From positions 124,001 through 188,000 of the forward strand of contig CAMBSD010000003.1 in assembly GCA_945870425.1 (NCBI GenBank): a DNA stretch of 64,000 nucleotides, given 5' to 3'. The DNA comes from Chitinophaga pinensis (GTDB taxonomy: Bacteria > Bacteroidota > Bacteroidia > UKL13-3). Shown in pieces: positions 4,636-16,309 of this stretch (the first letter of the stretch is position 1; each line of letters starts with the position of its first letter). The position numbers and the translations under genes were made by a program. Below the pieces are notes generated by a model. The model saw nothing but the letters and a program-made list of their open reading frames with translations, made no database searches and was not told the DNA's origin.

Positions 4636-4835
4636 ATAATAAATAGGTATGTAGGTTTTCAATCGCCCATTTTTGAATAAACTTCATTTCATTAACAATT
4701 TTTAGAGTTTGTTTTTAAATGTTTGATTATCAATACTATAAAATTGACAAATTAGCACAAGATGAAGGGAAAGCAGACAATTTGACAAATAATAATATTT
4801 TTTACTATTTTAAAACATTTACATAATAATTTAGT

Positions 4836-4865: not shown

Positions 4866-5585
4866 ATGGAACACTTAAAAATTCTAAGCGACAACTATGT
4901 TGCATTCACGTTCTTTATCGGAACAATGGCCATGATGGCCGCATCTGTTTTTTTCTTTTTTGAATTAAACAACACCTCACAAAAATGGAGAACTTCGGTT
5001 CTTGTTTCTGGATTAATTACCTTCATTGCAGCAGTTCATTACTACTACATGAGAGGTTACAATTTAGAAACTGGAGATTCTCCTACATTCTTCCGTTACG
5101 TTGATTGGATCTTAACTGTTCCATTAATGTGTGTAGAATTCTATTTAATTACCAAAAAAGCAGGTGCTAAGATTGGTTTATTATGGAAGTTGATTTTTGC
5201 ATCTTTAGTGATGTTAGTTACCGGTTACTTCGGAGAAACAATTGATAGAGGTAATAGCGTGCTTTGGGGTGTAATCTCTGGTGCTGCTTATTTCTACATT
5301 GCTTACCTAATTTGGTTTGGCGAAGTAGCTCAATTGGCTCAAACAGCTGGTCCACAGGTTGCTAAAGCAACAAGAGTATTGGCTTGGTTTGTACTTGTAG
5401 GTTGGGCAATTTACCCATTGGGATACATTTTAGGAACACCAGGTGGATTATTTGGTATTCAATTGGTAAGCGATCCTGCTGCTGCTAGTCATGCAATGGA
5501 TATTGTTTACAACATCGCTGATGCTATAAACAAAATTGGTTTTGGTCTAGTTATTTACGCTTTAAGTAGAAATTCAGAAGACTAA
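4866..5585 (+). CDS. Proteorhodopsin-type light-driven proton pump with a fenestration glycine
   Basis: A 239-residue seven-helix retinal protein of the inner membrane. Retinal would be bound as a Schiff base to Lys223 in helix G (DAINKIGFG). Helix C reads RYVDWILTVPLMCVEFYL, giving the D-T-E triad Asp80, Thr84, Glu91, which in this family marks an outward proton pump. His58, the partner of the proton acceptor in proteorhodopsins, is present. Met88 is at the spectral tuning site, and Met or Leu there goes with green absorption. Gly135 in helix E aligns with Phe152 of green proteorhodopsin; Gly at this site opens the fenestration used by carotenoid antennas in xanthorhodopsin. There is no cleaved signal peptide. 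The gene is followed by a terminator and then crtY-blh. Confidence 0.97.
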   Translation: MEHLKILSDNYVAFTFFIGTMAMMAASVFFFFELNNTSQKWRTSVLVSGLITFIAAVHYYYMRGYNLETGDSPTFFRYVDWILTVPLMCVEFYLITKKAGAKIGLLWKLIFASLVMLVTGYFGETIDRGNSVLWGVISGAAYFYIAYLIWFGEVAQLAQTAGPQVAKATRVLAWFVLVGWAIYPLGYILGTPGGLFGIQLVSDPAAASHAMDIVYNIADAINKIGFGLVIYALSRNSED

Positions 5586-5604: not shown

Positions 5605-5644
5605 AAAGGGAAGGTAATTTACAAATTTACCTTCCCTTTTTTAT
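5605..5644 (+). terminator. Strong intrinsic terminator after the rhodopsin gene
   Basis: AAAGGGAAGGTAA (5605-5617) pairs perfectly with TTACCTTCCCTTT (5627-5639) around a 9-nt loop and runs into a T-rich tract. The 13-bp stem lies 20 nt after the rhodopsin stop and 39 nt before the crtY-blh start. It should end most rhodopsin transcripts, so crtY-blh must rely on read-through or its own promoter. Confidence 0.85.
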
Positions 5645-5677
5645 TAGGTTCCAACAATAATAATTTCAATAAAATTT

Positions 5678-7684
5678 GTGTTAAAAGAATTGTCAAATAA
5701 GTTTGATTTTTTGTTTGTAGGCCTAGGTGCCTCCAATTGCTTATTAATTTTAAGACTTCACGAAAATGGAATACTTAATGATAAAACTTTTGCCGTAATT
5801 GAACCAAATAGTAAAAGTATAAATGACAAGACTTTTTGTTTTTGGGCTACTGAAGAAGAACTCTTGAGGCTAAAGTTAAATACGCTTGTAAGCAAAAGTT
5901 GGGATTGTTTAGAAATTGGAGGAATTGCTAAACAAGTAATTAATCCACTTAGATATTATTATGTAAAATCTATTGATTTATATAATATTACCAAAGATGT
6001 GTTGAATGATTATCAATTTAGATTATATGGTTCTCAATTAACAGAAAACCCAAAAATTACAAAAAATACATTTGAAATTAATTTAAAGAGTGAAATTATA
6101 TTCGCTGATAAAGTTTTTGATAGTCGCCCGCCCAATTATTTATTACCTAAAAAACACCAAAGTCATTTATTCCAATCTTTTTATGGTTGGAAAATTAAAA
6201 CTCCAAACCAATTTTTCGATATAGATTCCATTATGATGATGGATTTTAGGATAGAGCAAAATAATGCCACACAATTTATTTATATGCTTCCTTTTGATCG
6301 TGATTATGCATTGGTTGAAGTTACCAGATTCGGGAATTCCATTATGGAAGAAGCTGAAGCCAATACAATATTTGATAATTACGTAAATAAATTAGGCATT
6401 ACTTTTGAAATTATTGAAACAGAAAGAGGAGTTTTACCTATGACCTCTTCGCAAATGCAAATTGAAAATTTCGGGGAAAATTGGATATATATGGGCGTTA
6501 AGGCTAATCTATTAAAAGCAACTACAGGTTATGCCTTTCATGCCATGGCTGAAGATGCATTAGCCCTAGCAGGAAATATAAAAAATAATTATTTTTTTAA
6601 TAGAAAAATAAAAAAGGAAAGATTTAGATTTTACGATAGGCTATTACTTAAAATACTAAATGATCAGCCTGAATATGGAAAACCAATTTTTGAAACATTA
6701 TTTCAAAAGGTACCTATTGTAAAGGTTTTAAGTTTCATGGGAGAAAAAACCAATCTTTTCCAAGAGTTTTCAATTTTTTTTAGATTACCCAAAAGGGTTT
6801 TTATTTTAACAGCAATTAAAGATATTTATCAACAAACCAAAACGTTACCTATTTTAATTTTACCTTTTTTTTTTACCATTCTTTTCTTAATACTTAATTA
6901 TTTAAAATCAGAATCGATTTCATGGCTTCTTCTTGGCATAGGTTTTTTTACAGTTGGCTTGTCACATGGTGCATTAGATCATATTACACAAAAAGCGAAT
7001 ATAAACGCCAAAGAATATACTTATTTTATAGTCAATTATTTAATTAAAAGTGCCCTAATTGGTTCGGTTTGGCTTGTTTTTCCTTCCTTAGCATTAATTA
7101 TCTTCATTCTTTATTCGGCTTGGCATTTTGGACAAGCTGATTACCAGGAGTGGAAATTAAAGTACGGATTGCAATCATTTTTATGGGGATTAATATCTTT
7201 ATTAATAATTTTATTATTCCACTTCGATGAGTTGAATCTATTTTTGCTACAAATACCAAATTTACAAGCTTTAAATACTATTAACCATATTTCGCATAAC
7301 CAATTATTTATGTATCAAATTGGAATTGTTATTTTGGGTTTCATTTTGGCTCTTTTAAACAAATCCAAATTAATGGCTCTTACTTTAATGTATTTAATGC
7401 TTTCATCAATGCTACCCTTATTACTTTCATTTGGAATTTATTTTGTAGGTCAGCACAGTATGCATGGTTGGAAACACCTAAAATGTGGATTAAATGAAAC
7501 ATTACCGAGTTTATTAATAAAAGCATTACCATTTACACTGGGAGGTATAATAGTCATTTTGTTTTTTATGCTTTATTTTAGTGTAAATTATATCGGTGTT
7601 TTTTTTATTGTATTATCATGTTTGAGTATGCCACATGTATTGAGCATGAATTATTTTTACTCTAAAAAAGATATAATCAGCTAG
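5678..7684 (+). CDS. Fused lycopene beta-cyclase and beta-carotene 15,15'-dioxygenase (CrtY-Blh)
   Basis: One 668-residue ORF holds two complete enzymes. Residues about 8-385 are a lycopene cyclase: a FAD-binding VGLGASN loop (14-20), acidic Glu42 ending the second strand, the cyclase signature NDKTFCFW (49-56), DSRPP (148-152), YMLPFDRDYALVE, and KATTGYAFHAM. Residues about 388-668 are a Brp/Blh membrane dioxygenase with several hydrophobic helices and the expected metal-ligand histidines: GLSHGALDH (His430, His435), AWHFGQAD (His483), GQHSMHGWKH (His593, 596, 600) and His653. Cyclisation of lycopene to beta-carotene and its cleavage to retinal would occur in one protein. The start is GTG at 5678; no ATG precedes it in frame. 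No stop or frame break lies at the junction. Other crt genes are absent here. Confidence 0.93.
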   Translation: MLKELSNKFDFLFVGLGASNCLLILRLHENGILNDKTFAVIEPNSKSINDKTFCFWATEEELLRLKLNTLVSKSWDCLEIGGIAKQVINPLRYYYVKSIDLYNITKDVLNDYQFRLYGSQLTENPKITKNTFEINLKSEIIFADKVFDSRPPNYLLPKKHQSHLFQSFYGWKIKTPNQFFDIDSIMMMDFRIEQNNATQFIYMLPFDRDYALVEVTRFGNSIMEEAEANTIFDNYVNKLGITFEIIETERGVLPMTSSQMQIENFGENWIYMGVKANLLKATTGYAFHAMAEDALALAGNIKNNYFFNRKIKKERFRFYDRLLLKILNDQPEYGKPIFETLFQKVPIVKVLSFMGEKTNLFQEFSIFFRLPKRVFILTAIKDIYQQTKTLPILILPFFFTILFLILNYLKSESISWLLLGIGFFTVGLSHGALDHITQKANINAKEYTYFIVNYLIKSALIGSVWLVFPSLALIIFILYSAWHFGQADYQEWKLKYGLQSFLWGLISLLIILLFHFDELNLFLLQIPNLQALNTINHISHNQLFMYQIGIVILGFILALLNKSKLMALTLMYLMLSSMLPLLLSFGIYFVGQHSMHGWKHLKCGLNETLPSLLIKALPFTLGGIIVILFFMLYFSVNYIGVFFIVLSCLSMPHVLSMNYFYSKKDIIS

Positions 7685-12615: not shown

Positions 12616-14067
12616 ATGTCTGAAAATCAAGAAGTAGATATAATTGACGAGGTTATAAGTCAAGATTACAAATACGGTTTTAGCACTGATATTGAAATGG
12701 AGACTGCTCCAATGGGTCTAAGCGAAGAGATAGTTCGTTTTATCTCAGCTAAAAAAAATGAACCCGAATGGTTGTTAGAATGGAGGCTTAAAGCTTATCG
12801 CTATTGGTTAACTTTAAAAGAACCAACATGGCAAAATTTTAGGTATCCAAAAGTCAACTATCAAGATATTATATTCTATGCTGCCCCAAAGCAAAAAATT
12901 ACCTTAGACAGTCTTGATCAAGTAGACCCTGAATTACTAAAAACCTTCGAAAAGCTTGGTATTAGCTTAACAGAGCAAAAACGATTGACAGGCGTTGCCG
13001 TTGATGCGGTGTTTGATTCAGTGTCGATTGCTACTACATTTAAAGATCAATTGAAAGAAAAAGGAGTAATTTTCTGCGCTATTAGTGAAGCTGTGCATGA
13101 ACATCCAGAATTGGTGAGAAAATATTTAGGCTCAGTAGTACCTGCAACTGACAATTATTATGCAGCTTTAAATTCAGCTGTGTTTAGTGATGGTAGTTTT
13201 GTTTACATACCCAAAGGTGTTCGTTGCCCAATGGAGCTTTCCACCTACTTTCGTATCAATGCAGAAAATACCGGTCAGTTTGAGCGGACTCTCATTATAG
13301 CTGATGATAATAGCTATGTGAGCTATCTTGAAGGTTGCACCGCACCTATGCGTGACGAAAACCAACTTCATGCGGCAGTGGTTGAATTGGTAACACACGA
13401 TCATGCTGAAATTAAATATTCAACCGTTCAAAATTGGTATCCTGGAGATAAAGAAGGCAAGGGCGGTATCTATAATTTTGTTACCAAACGCGGCATCTGC
13501 GAAGGTTCCCATTCTAAAATTAGCTGGACACAAGTTGAGACTGGTTCTGCCATCACTTGGAAGTACCCTAGTTGTATTTTGAAAGGTGATTATTCGACAG
13601 GAGAGTTCTTTTCTGTAGCTGTTACCAACAACCATCAATTGGCTGATACGGGCACTAAAATGGTTCATATCGGTAAGCATACCAAAAGTAGAATTGTGAG
13701 TAAAGGTATATCGGCTGGTAAGTCACATAACACATATAGAGGTTTGGTTAAGGTGAATAAGAAGGCTGAAAAATCTAGAAACCACACCCAGTGCGACAGT
13801 ATGTTAATTGGAGATAGAAGTGGTGCTCATACCTTTCCATATATAGAAGTAAACAACAATACTTCACAAGTGGAGCATGAGGCAAGTACTTCAAAAATTG
13901 GAGAAGATCAATTGTTTTATTGTAACCAAAGGGGCATTGGAACTGAAGAGGCAATTGGACTTATTGTAAATGGATTTTGTAAAGAGGTATTGAACCAATT
14001 ACCTATGGAATTTGCAGTTGAAGCGCAGAAGCTATTAGCAGTAAGTTTAGAGGGAAGTGTAGGATAA
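12616..14067 (+). CDS. sufB: Fe-S cluster scaffold SufB
   Basis: SufB is the main scaffold of the SufBC2D complex, on which iron-sulfur clusters are built from persulfide sulfur delivered by SufS and SufE. The 483-residue protein has the usual length and family segments: [16 protein letters not shown] near the N-terminus, [29 protein letters not shown] with the conserved Cys region, and the C-terminal [19 protein letters not shown] that forms the contact with SufD. It is the first gene of the operon sufB-C-D-(GxxExxY)-S-E-T. Its stop codon touches the first bases of a palindromic repeat that fills the gap to sufC. Confidence 0.97.
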
Positions 14068-14187
14068 AAAGCCCCTCTAAATCTCCCCCGAGGGGGAGAC
14101 TTTTAAAAAAAGAAATTTTATGAATGAAATAGAAAAAATAGGGAATCAAACTCTCTCTCCTTTGGGGAGAGTAGGAGAGGGGCTTTT
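14067..14187. repeat. Palindromic element filling the sufB-sufC gap and entering sufC
   Basis: A perfect 12-bp outer inverted repeat, AAAAGCCCCTCT (14067-14078) and AGAGGGGCTTTT (14176-14187), encloses two inner palindromes: TCTCCCCC/GGGGGAGA at 14082-14099 and CTCTCC/GGAGAG around 14153-14170. The left end overlaps the sufB stop codon. The right end lies inside the sufC ORF, so codons 1-22 of sufC are made of this repeat. Its C-rich and G-rich arms resemble the copy at 2841-2882. Confidence 0.75.
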
Positions 14188-14950
14188 AAGCATAAAAAAT
14201 CTAAAAGCAGAAATAGAAGGTAAGAAAATTCTGAATGGAATTAACCTTGAGGTAAAAGCAGGCGAGGTACATGCCATCATGGGACCAAATGGCGCAGGTA
14301 AAAGTACTTTAAGTGCTGTGCTTGCTGGTCGTGCAGACTATGATGTGACTGAAGGTTCTGTAACCCTTGATGGCAAAGACCTATTGGACATGTCGGCAGA
14401 AGACAGAGCGCGTGAAGGTGTGTTTTTAGCTTTCCAATACCCAATCGAAATTCCGGGTGTAAGCACTACCAATTTCTTAAAAACTGCAGTAAATGAAAAA
14501 CGTAAATACCAAGGTTTAGAGCCCATGGAGGCAACTGATTTCTTGAAATTGATGCGTCAGAAAATGGAGTTTGTAGAAATGGATAAATCTTTAACATCAC
14601 GCTCATTGAACGAAGGATTTAGCGGTGGTGAGAAAAAGCGAAATGAAATTTTCCAAATGGCTATGCTTGAACCTAAATTATCTATTTTGGATGAAACTGA
14701 TTCAGGTTTGGATATTGATGCTTTAAGATTGGTATCAGAGGGAGTAAACAAATTGCGCAATAAAGACAATGCTTATATCGTAATTACCCATTACCAAAGA
14801 CTGTTGGATTATATCGTTCCGGATTTTGTGCATGTATTGTATAAAGGAAGAATTGTGAAAAGTGGAGATGCCAGTTTAGCTAAAGAGTTAGAGCTAAAAG
14901 GATATGATTGGATTAAAGCAGAAGTAGAGGCTAATGCTAAAATAATATAG
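14120..14950 (+). CDS. sufC: Fe-S assembly ATPase SufC with a repeat-derived N-terminus
   Basis: SufC is the ABC-type ATPase of the SufBC2D scaffold complex. The conserved protein begins at [13 protein letters not shown] (residue 22 on), with Walker A GPNGAGKS at 55-62, the ABC signature region [13 protein letters not shown], and Walker [13 protein letters not shown]. SufC homologues generally start two or three residues before IKNL. Here the only upstream ATG in frame is 14120, which adds about 20 residues (from MNEIEK to VGEG) encoded by the palindromic element at 14067-14187. A TTG at codon 15 is the only other upstream start candidate. The family length is about 250, so 276 fits an added tail. 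Confidence 0.95.
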
Positions 14951-15008
14951 CCAAAGATTGCACTGATTACTCGGAAAAAGAATTAGTGAAATTTGTGTAA
15001 TCTGTGGC
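14950..15008. repeat. Short inverted-repeat element (CCACAGATT family) between sufC and sufD
   Basis: Starting at the G of the sufC TAG stop, an arm of about 28 nt (GCCAAAGATTGCACTGATTAC and on) faces a right arm ending GTAATCTGTGGC at 15008. The arms match at about 16 of their outer 21 positions. The element has no gene inside and looks like a short form of the element pair that encloses the GxxExxY gene at 16309-16848. Confidence 0.65.
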
Positions 15009-15022
15009 AAAAAAAGAAATAC

Positions 15023-16309
15023 ATGTTGTTAGAAAATATTAAATCAGAATACAATCAGTATAAAAACCAAGCTGAAGAAAGTGCATTCTTTCAATTGAGA
15101 GAAAAGGCATTTGCAGAATTTGATAAGAGTGGTTTTCCTACTATAAAGAATGAGGAGTGGAAATACACGAATCTAAAAAGCATTTTCGATAAAAATTTCA
15201 AAAGCACTTGTGTATCATCTGCTAGTGTTAAGAATCTTTTAGTTGATAGTTTATTTAATAGCATTAAAGCCAACAAATTGGTATTTGTGAATGGCAGCTT
15301 CAATCCAGAATTATCAAGTATTATTGAGAAGGACAGTGCTATTGTAATTTCGAATTTGGCAAAAGCAAGAAAAGAAAATACAATTGTGTTTGATGCACAT
15401 TTTGGTAATTATGCAAAGATTGAAAATGAATCATTGAACGCCATGAATACGGCTTTGATGAGTGATGGAGCTTTCGTTTATGTGCCTTCAAACAAGAAAG
15501 TTGAAAATCCAATCATCATCATAAATGTGGTTGATGCCAATGACATGAACGTATTGAGCCAACCTCGTAACCTGATAATTTTAGAAAAAAATGCAGAAGC
15601 TTGCATCGTTGAATCGTATATTTCTGTTGGGGTAAATGCCTCTTTCATCAATGTGGTGAATGAAATATATGTGAATGAAAATGCCCATTTAGAGCATTAT
15701 AAAATCCAGCAACAAACAGGTGAAAGCTATCAAAATAACTATACACAAATTTTTCAAGAGGCTAATACCAATATCAATCAAGTAACCTTAACCCTTGATG
15801 GAACAATGGTTCGCAATAATTTACATTTCTATATGAATGGCAAAAATTGTGATACACTTTTGTATGGATTGTATATTACCGAAGGTTCAAACCATATAGA
15901 TAACCATACCCGTGTTGATCATGCTATGCCTAATTGCCAGAGCAATGAATTGTATAAAGGGATCATGAAAGACAAGTCAACGGCAGTGTTTAATGGTAAG
16001 ATTATGGTTCATTTGGATGCTCAAAAAACCAATGCATACCAAAGAAATCAAAATGTATTGTTAGATCCAGAAGCTTCAATTAACACTAAGCCACAGTTGG
16101 AGATTTTTGCAGATGATGTAAAATGCACACATGGAGCAACCATTGGTCAGCTTGATGAAGAACCTATGTTTTATTTACGTAGCAGAGGCATTCCTGAAGA
16201 TGTAGCAAGAAAAATGTTATTAAATGCATTTGCTGATGACATAGCAGAAAAAATAAAAATACCAGAATTGGTAGGTTTGTTGGAACAATTAATTGAAGAA
16301 AAATTATAG
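15023..16309 (+). CDS. sufD: Fe-S assembly protein SufD
   Basis: SufD is the SufB paralogue of the SufBC2D scaffold and is needed for iron entry into the cluster. I place the start at ATG 15023 (MLLENIKSEYNQYK), which gives 428 residues. A GTG 30 nt upstream in frame falls in the repeat and adds nothing conserved. Visible family features are PTIKNEEWKYTNLKSIF, typical of SufD N-termini; the beta-helix core; THGATIGQLDEEPMFYLRSRGI, which carries the conserved His of the C-terminal SufB interface; and the ending IAEKIKIPELVGLLE. The TAG stop provides the first base of the next repeat arm. Confidence 0.95.
   Translation: MLLENIKSEYNQYKNQAEESAFFQLREKAFAEFDKSGFPTIKNEEWKYTNLKSIFDKNFKSTCVSSASVKNLLVDSLFNSIKANKLVFVNGSFNPELSSIIEKDSAIVISNLAKARKENTIVFDAHFGNYAKIENESLNAMNTALMSDGAFVYVPSNKKVENPIIIINVVDANDMNVLSQPRNLIILEKNAEACIVESYISVGVNASFINVVNEIYVNENAHLEHYKIQQQTGESYQNNYTQIFQEANTNINQVTLTLDGTMVRNNLHFYMNGKNCDTLLYGLYITEGSNHIDNHTRVDHAMPNCQSNELYKGIMKDKSTAVFNGKIMVHLDAQKTNAYQRNQNVLLDPEASINTKPQLEIFADDVKCTHGATIGQLDEEPMFYLRSRGIPEDVARKMLLNAFADDIAEKIKIPELVGLLEQLIEEKL

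Follow-up and report, generated by a model that had tools for sequence, protein, structure and literature searches.

The window, a stretch of 64,000 nucleotides, sits well within a 254-kb contig. Near its start, a single gene joins a lycopene cyclase (CrtY) to a beta-carotene dioxygenase (Blh), with a proteorhodopsin gene directly upstream. The features of this locus are as follows:

4866-5585 (+), proteorhodopsin gene, 239 aa (PF01036, E 1.2e-42; best solved relatives are proteorhodopsins)
5605-5645 (+), terminator-like hairpin between the rhodopsin and fusion genes (16-bp stem, 3-nt loop, T tail)
5678-7684 (+), fusion gene crtY-blh, 668 aa, GTG start, stop included
5705-6796 (+), CrtY half, FAD-dependent lycopene cyclase, residues 10-373 (PF05834 match)
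6797-6943 (+), junction, residues 374-422 (helices 372-387 and 394-408, and the start of 412-431)
6944-7654 (+), Blh half, membrane beta-carotene 15,15'-dioxygenase, residues 423-659 (PF15461, TIGR03753)

The 668 codons of the fusion gene run without interruption, and no in-frame start codon lies upstream of the GTG. An earlier sequence-only reading had described one unbroken frame, a full CrtY and a full Blh within it, and a rhodopsin as neighbour. The frame is borne out by Pfam and by independent genomes, the two enzymes by near-complete coverage of both profiles, and the rhodopsin by its family match and solved relatives. PF05834 (Lycopene_cycl) covers residues 10-373 with profile positions 1-373 of 380 (E 1.3e-38; 133.5 bits against a cut-off of 23.4), and PF15461 (BCD) covers residues 423-659 with positions 3-265 of 267 (E 9.9e-32; 111 against 28 bits). 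These are the only Pfam domains in the 668 aa. The Blh half also exceeds the cut-off of the NCBIfam model blh_monoox (TIGR03753; 118.3 vs. 95.25). The cyclase half matches both TIGR01790 (the lycopene cyclase family) and TIGR01789 (the CrtY equivalog) below their cut-offs (80 vs. 209.5 and 59 vs. 215.2). Because its score is lower than the curated cut-off, the half is not classed as a TIGR01789 equivalog, and its product could thus be monocyclic rather than bicyclic.

The residues that are universal among fused and separate CrtY proteins are G15 and G17 (the FAD motif glycines), E214, and T216. We take E214 to be the glutamate of a FLEET-like motif. H430, H483, H593, and H653 are found throughout the Blh family, fused and unfused. 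A comparison of 55 fused-clade sequences shows the universal residues of the two families retained in nearly every one. Among fused proteins, H435 and H600 are near-invariant. H596, which the sequence-only reading had listed with these six histidines, is not conserved. The residue before H593 is Q in the fused clade and W in many relatives, and the fused clade also has W598. In the marine Blh 66A03, changing His21, 78, 188, or 192 cut the activity (PMC9227343). By motif and spacing, H430, H483, and H593 fit the first three of these. The fourth has no clear counterpart by the same measure, and H600 or H653, the two candidates, may stand in for it.

The junction, measured from F375 to G422, is 43-52 residues long, and is 48 or 51 in 58 of 70 proteins. 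It is the least conserved stretch (identity to the window about 0.26 vs. 0.42). Between the window copy and its relative of 98% identity, which differ by few changes, dN/dS is 0.28 for the whole frame and 0.24-0.38 by part; this small sample holds 13 silent and 14 residue-changing codon differences. AlphaFold2, given 70 sequences, models the whole chain with pLDDT 92.7 and pTM 0.81. Structure comparison, which spans residues 4-382 and therefore the cyclase half only, places this half closest in fold to geranylgeranyl reductase-like flavoproteins (Z 22.9, 349 aligned, rmsd 4.1). A sequence search of the PDB gave no match to the whole-protein profile or to the Blh half.

The fusion is genuine and ancient, and many uncultured Bacteroidota carry it. 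The same frame is found at 98% identity in a second genome of the genus. No stop or frame break, which the sequence-only reading had named as grounds for rejecting the fusion, is found here, and the frame is intact in this relative and in the kept matches of the species-genome scan. Full-length matches exist in 14 of 58 relatives (own genome counted). Thirteen of them have no internal stop, and in the other (G025) the single TAA, close to the end, is the stop that terminates its own frame. The reading had also proposed a search for single chains with both domains. About 85,000 species genomes were scanned; 299 relatives were confirmed and the best 80 kept, and in all of these 80 the two halves share one frame, some being cut by contig ends. 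Nearly all are titled as Bacteroidota metagenome bins; a few carry other bin labels as putative assignments (Streptomyces, Sphingomonadales, Kapaibacterium, Ignavibacteria, and Methylotenera). Among 295 genomes of the class, BCD is found in 52, and about 25 of these are fused judging by frame length (650-699 aa). The 31 fused genomes from the class and other relatives represent ten family codes. Because the genomes compared are related, these counts are not independent of one another. No relative of the fusion is found among viral contigs or phage records, and plasmid matches are to the cyclase only, none spanning both halves.

Separate trees were built for the two halves. The fused rows come together in the CrtY tree, with support of 100/98 without L137 and 92/73 with it. 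The copy of G315, whose frame is broken, falls in this group, as does the cyclase of G293 from the same genus, and adjoining the group are three unfused cyclases located beside blh (L112, L115, and L121). L104, L110, and L111 make up another group with the remaining separate cyclases. The Blh tree likewise unites the fused rows (98/97), along with two lone Blh proteins, L125, which is cut by a contig end, and the uncut L118 of G251. Subgroups common to both trees are window-L003-L023, L004-L040, L008-L009, and L054-L083-L061-L074. Since there is essentially one fused clade and much the same subgroups recur in both half-trees, the simplest and likeliest reading of the sequences is that the halves fused once and then descended together. 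The lone Blh of L118 may predate the fusion as its precursor or stem from a subsequent loss. In unfused relatives, crtY and blh overlap by 4 nt (L112 and L115) or 14 nt (L110 and L121) when the likeliest starts are assumed; therefore, a small indel could join the genes. Rhodopsin, crtY, and blh occur in the order of the window in the unfused genomes G117, G187, and G292.

Irregular copies are also found. At L123:3529-5663 (+), in G315, the halves lie in different frames, with an apparent one-base shift near 4668 (an error, a split, or decay). What remains of a fused-type Blh in G008 (L131:4539-5117 (-)) is 193 aa long, in a genome with neither rhodopsin nor CrtY. The lone Blh in the fused clade noted above (L118:2239-3087 (-), G251) comes from a genome that lacks CrtY and carries another Blh of a different kind.

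The fusion is closely associated with rhodopsin. The proteorhodopsin of the window, RYVDWILTVPLMCVE, has D, T, and E at the acceptor and donor positions of proton pumps, as read from its sequence. Rhodopsin is found in 30 of the 31 fused genomes. In the window's family, it is present in 13 of 13 fused genomes (one split over two contigs) vs. 2 of 22 others (Fisher 7e-8, uncorrected for kinship). At the best 80 loci, rhodopsin lies immediately upstream on the same strand in 43 and in another close arrangement in 12. The other 25 have no rhodopsin in the flanking stretch covered, and in several genomes it lies elsewhere. The hairpin at 5605-5645 has a fold z of -4.2 against dinucleotide shuffles, and a comparable hairpin separates rhodopsin and fusion in 41 of 55 loci, where 0.8 are expected from such shuffles. 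A consensus terminator scan lists nothing at 5605-5645, while a separate hairpin scan and the fold do find the hairpin. The sequence-only reading had suggested that a fusion could tie retinal supply to rhodopsin demand; such a tie is not simple co-expression, because the hairpin is usual and rhodopsin lies elsewhere in several genomes.

A second proteorhodopsin, 94% identical to that of the window, is found in the same genome at L149:2721-3443 (-) on C41, a contig of 3.5 kb. It could be a paralogue or reflect strain variation in the bin.

In the own genome, PF05834 and PF15461 are each found once, both in the fusion. Another contig carries a pigment operon of crtYcd, crtZ-like, and cruF-like genes (L148:6136-7965 (-)). 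The crtZ-like gene encodes a 152-aa FA_hydroxylase-family protein, so called by position, size, and family. crtB, crtI, and idi are found on a third contig, and CrtI passes the cut-off of the model for bifunctional phytoene desaturase/3,4-desaturase. As a set, crtYcd-crtZ-cruF is similar to the genes found in monocyclic flexixanthin makers (PMC10784355), and it is reported that a Bacteroidota CrtYcd can act as a monocyclase (PMC2889829). The operon and the CrtID-type desaturase elsewhere in the genome suggest, by gene content, a monocyclic carotenoid. If the pigments are monocyclic, the making of bicyclic beta-carotene would fall to the fusion.

The two-cyclase pattern extends to other genomes. 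An additional lycopene cyclase is found in 30 of 31 fused genomes, the exception being 77% complete, and in all six genomes where crtY adjoins an unfused blh. The dedicated cyclase therefore seems older than the fusion. The 18 lone-Blh genomes have one cyclase type each, which must serve both pigments and retinal, so retinal synthesis does not in itself call for a dedicated cyclase. Where it exists, the fusion seems to be the private enzyme of retinal, apart from the pigment cyclase.

The explanation we consider quite probable is that the protein is a bifunctional lycopene-to-retinal synthase, dedicated to retinal, which arose once in Bacteroidota. We infer that both activities reside in the one chain. 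The N-terminal FAD domain, probably on the membrane, would cyclise both ends of lycopene to give beta-carotene. The C-terminal membrane domain, with iron probably bound by histidines, would split beta-carotene into two retinals, which would supply the neighbouring proteorhodopsin. Pigment synthesis would rest on a separate cyclase, which in this genome is the CrtYcd of the operon with the CrtZ-like hydroxylase and the CruF-like protein. Fusion would keep cyclase and dioxygenase in equal amounts, and beta-carotene would be cleaved ahead of the pigment enzymes. The hairpin may act as a partial terminator, giving much rhodopsin and an enzyme expression that is probably well below it. The fused gene probably formed, once and in Bacteroidota, from overlapping crtY and blh genes. 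A stricter form, in which beta-carotene is handed from cyclase to dioxygenase without release, as a private retinal line kept since the single fusion, is possible but doubtful.

The best surviving alternative is that the two halves work independently, their join giving equal amounts or being a neutral relic of the gene overlap, without channelling or insulation. It opposes only the insulation part of the explanation above and is compatible with bifunctionality; we find it a plausible reading, if short of probable. It is consistent with the overlap of the unfused neighbours, where one small indel could join the genes, with the low conservation of the junction, and with the different frames in one genus and the lone fused-type Blh elsewhere. 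Against it are the keeping of the fusion in most descendants across the ten family codes, the nearly fixed length of the junction, and the confident model of the whole chain.

It is improbable that the fused cyclase feeds a general carotenoid pool of which Blh takes a share, so that the protein is not specific to retinal. Such a role would suit the sole CrtY-type cyclase of its genome, and a Bacteroidota CrtYcd is reported to be able to act as a monocyclase. However, the fusion tracks rhodopsin and not pigment genes. Twenty of the 22 non-fused family genomes lack rhodopsin, while CrtYcd is retained in 21 of the 23 searched, which include a fused genome divided between contigs.

Very unlikely is the degeneration of one half to leave a single activity. 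While the sub-threshold NCBIfam scores of the cyclase and the missing clear counterpart of the fourth catalytic histidine point that way, the retention of universal residues in both halves and their similar evolutionary rates argue against it. That an assembly or sequencing error merged two genes, as a single missed base could where crtY and blh overlap, has practically no likelihood and is refuted, because independent genomes carry the same frame at identities from 98% down to about 34%, which excludes chance and error.

No description of a bacterial CrtY-Blh fusion was found in the open-access papers searched. To that extent the sequence-only reading, which knew of no described natural fusion of this type, is supported for bacteria; in eukaryotes, a four-domain Blh fusion is known (PMC10016063). 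In this protein of Thecamonas, the nearest case found, Blh is fused with a CrtYc/d-type cyclase, CrtI, and CrtB (PMC10016063). As in the protein studied here, lycopene cyclase is directly followed by Blh in one chain; unlike it, the Thecamonas protein is eukaryotic, has four domains, and uses a CrtYc/d cyclase, whereas the bacterial one has FAD-type CrtY, of a different family, and neither CrtI nor CrtB. Proteorhodopsin clusters with separate crtY and blh share the enzyme families, the two steps, and the nearby rhodopsin, but have two proteins and include crtB and crtI, which lie on another contig here. The CrtIB fusion in rhodopsin clusters of Verrucomicrobiota (PMC10284914) is another case of consecutive retinal-synthesis enzymes naturally fused in a bacterium, though it joins earlier steps. 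The same paper names CrtBY and CrtIBY as known natural fusions, with no CrtY-Blh among them. CrtYB and CrtIBY of fungi and thraustochytrids are also carotenoid-pathway fusions containing a lycopene cyclase, but they combine a CrtYc/d-type cyclase with synthase or desaturase, without dioxygenase.

If one natural bifunctional protein turns lycopene into retinal, as predicted here, it would be of use in vitamin A and rhodopsin engineering. The fusion offers a direct means of testing how a water-insoluble intermediate is handed over, and it marks retinal-based light use across many uncultured Bacteroidota. The two-cyclase pattern suggests how retinal and pigment synthesis can stay separate in cells.

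Farther along the window, at 12616-16309 (+), are SufB-, SufC-, and SufD-like genes in a row, recognised by sequence, an ordinary arrangement.
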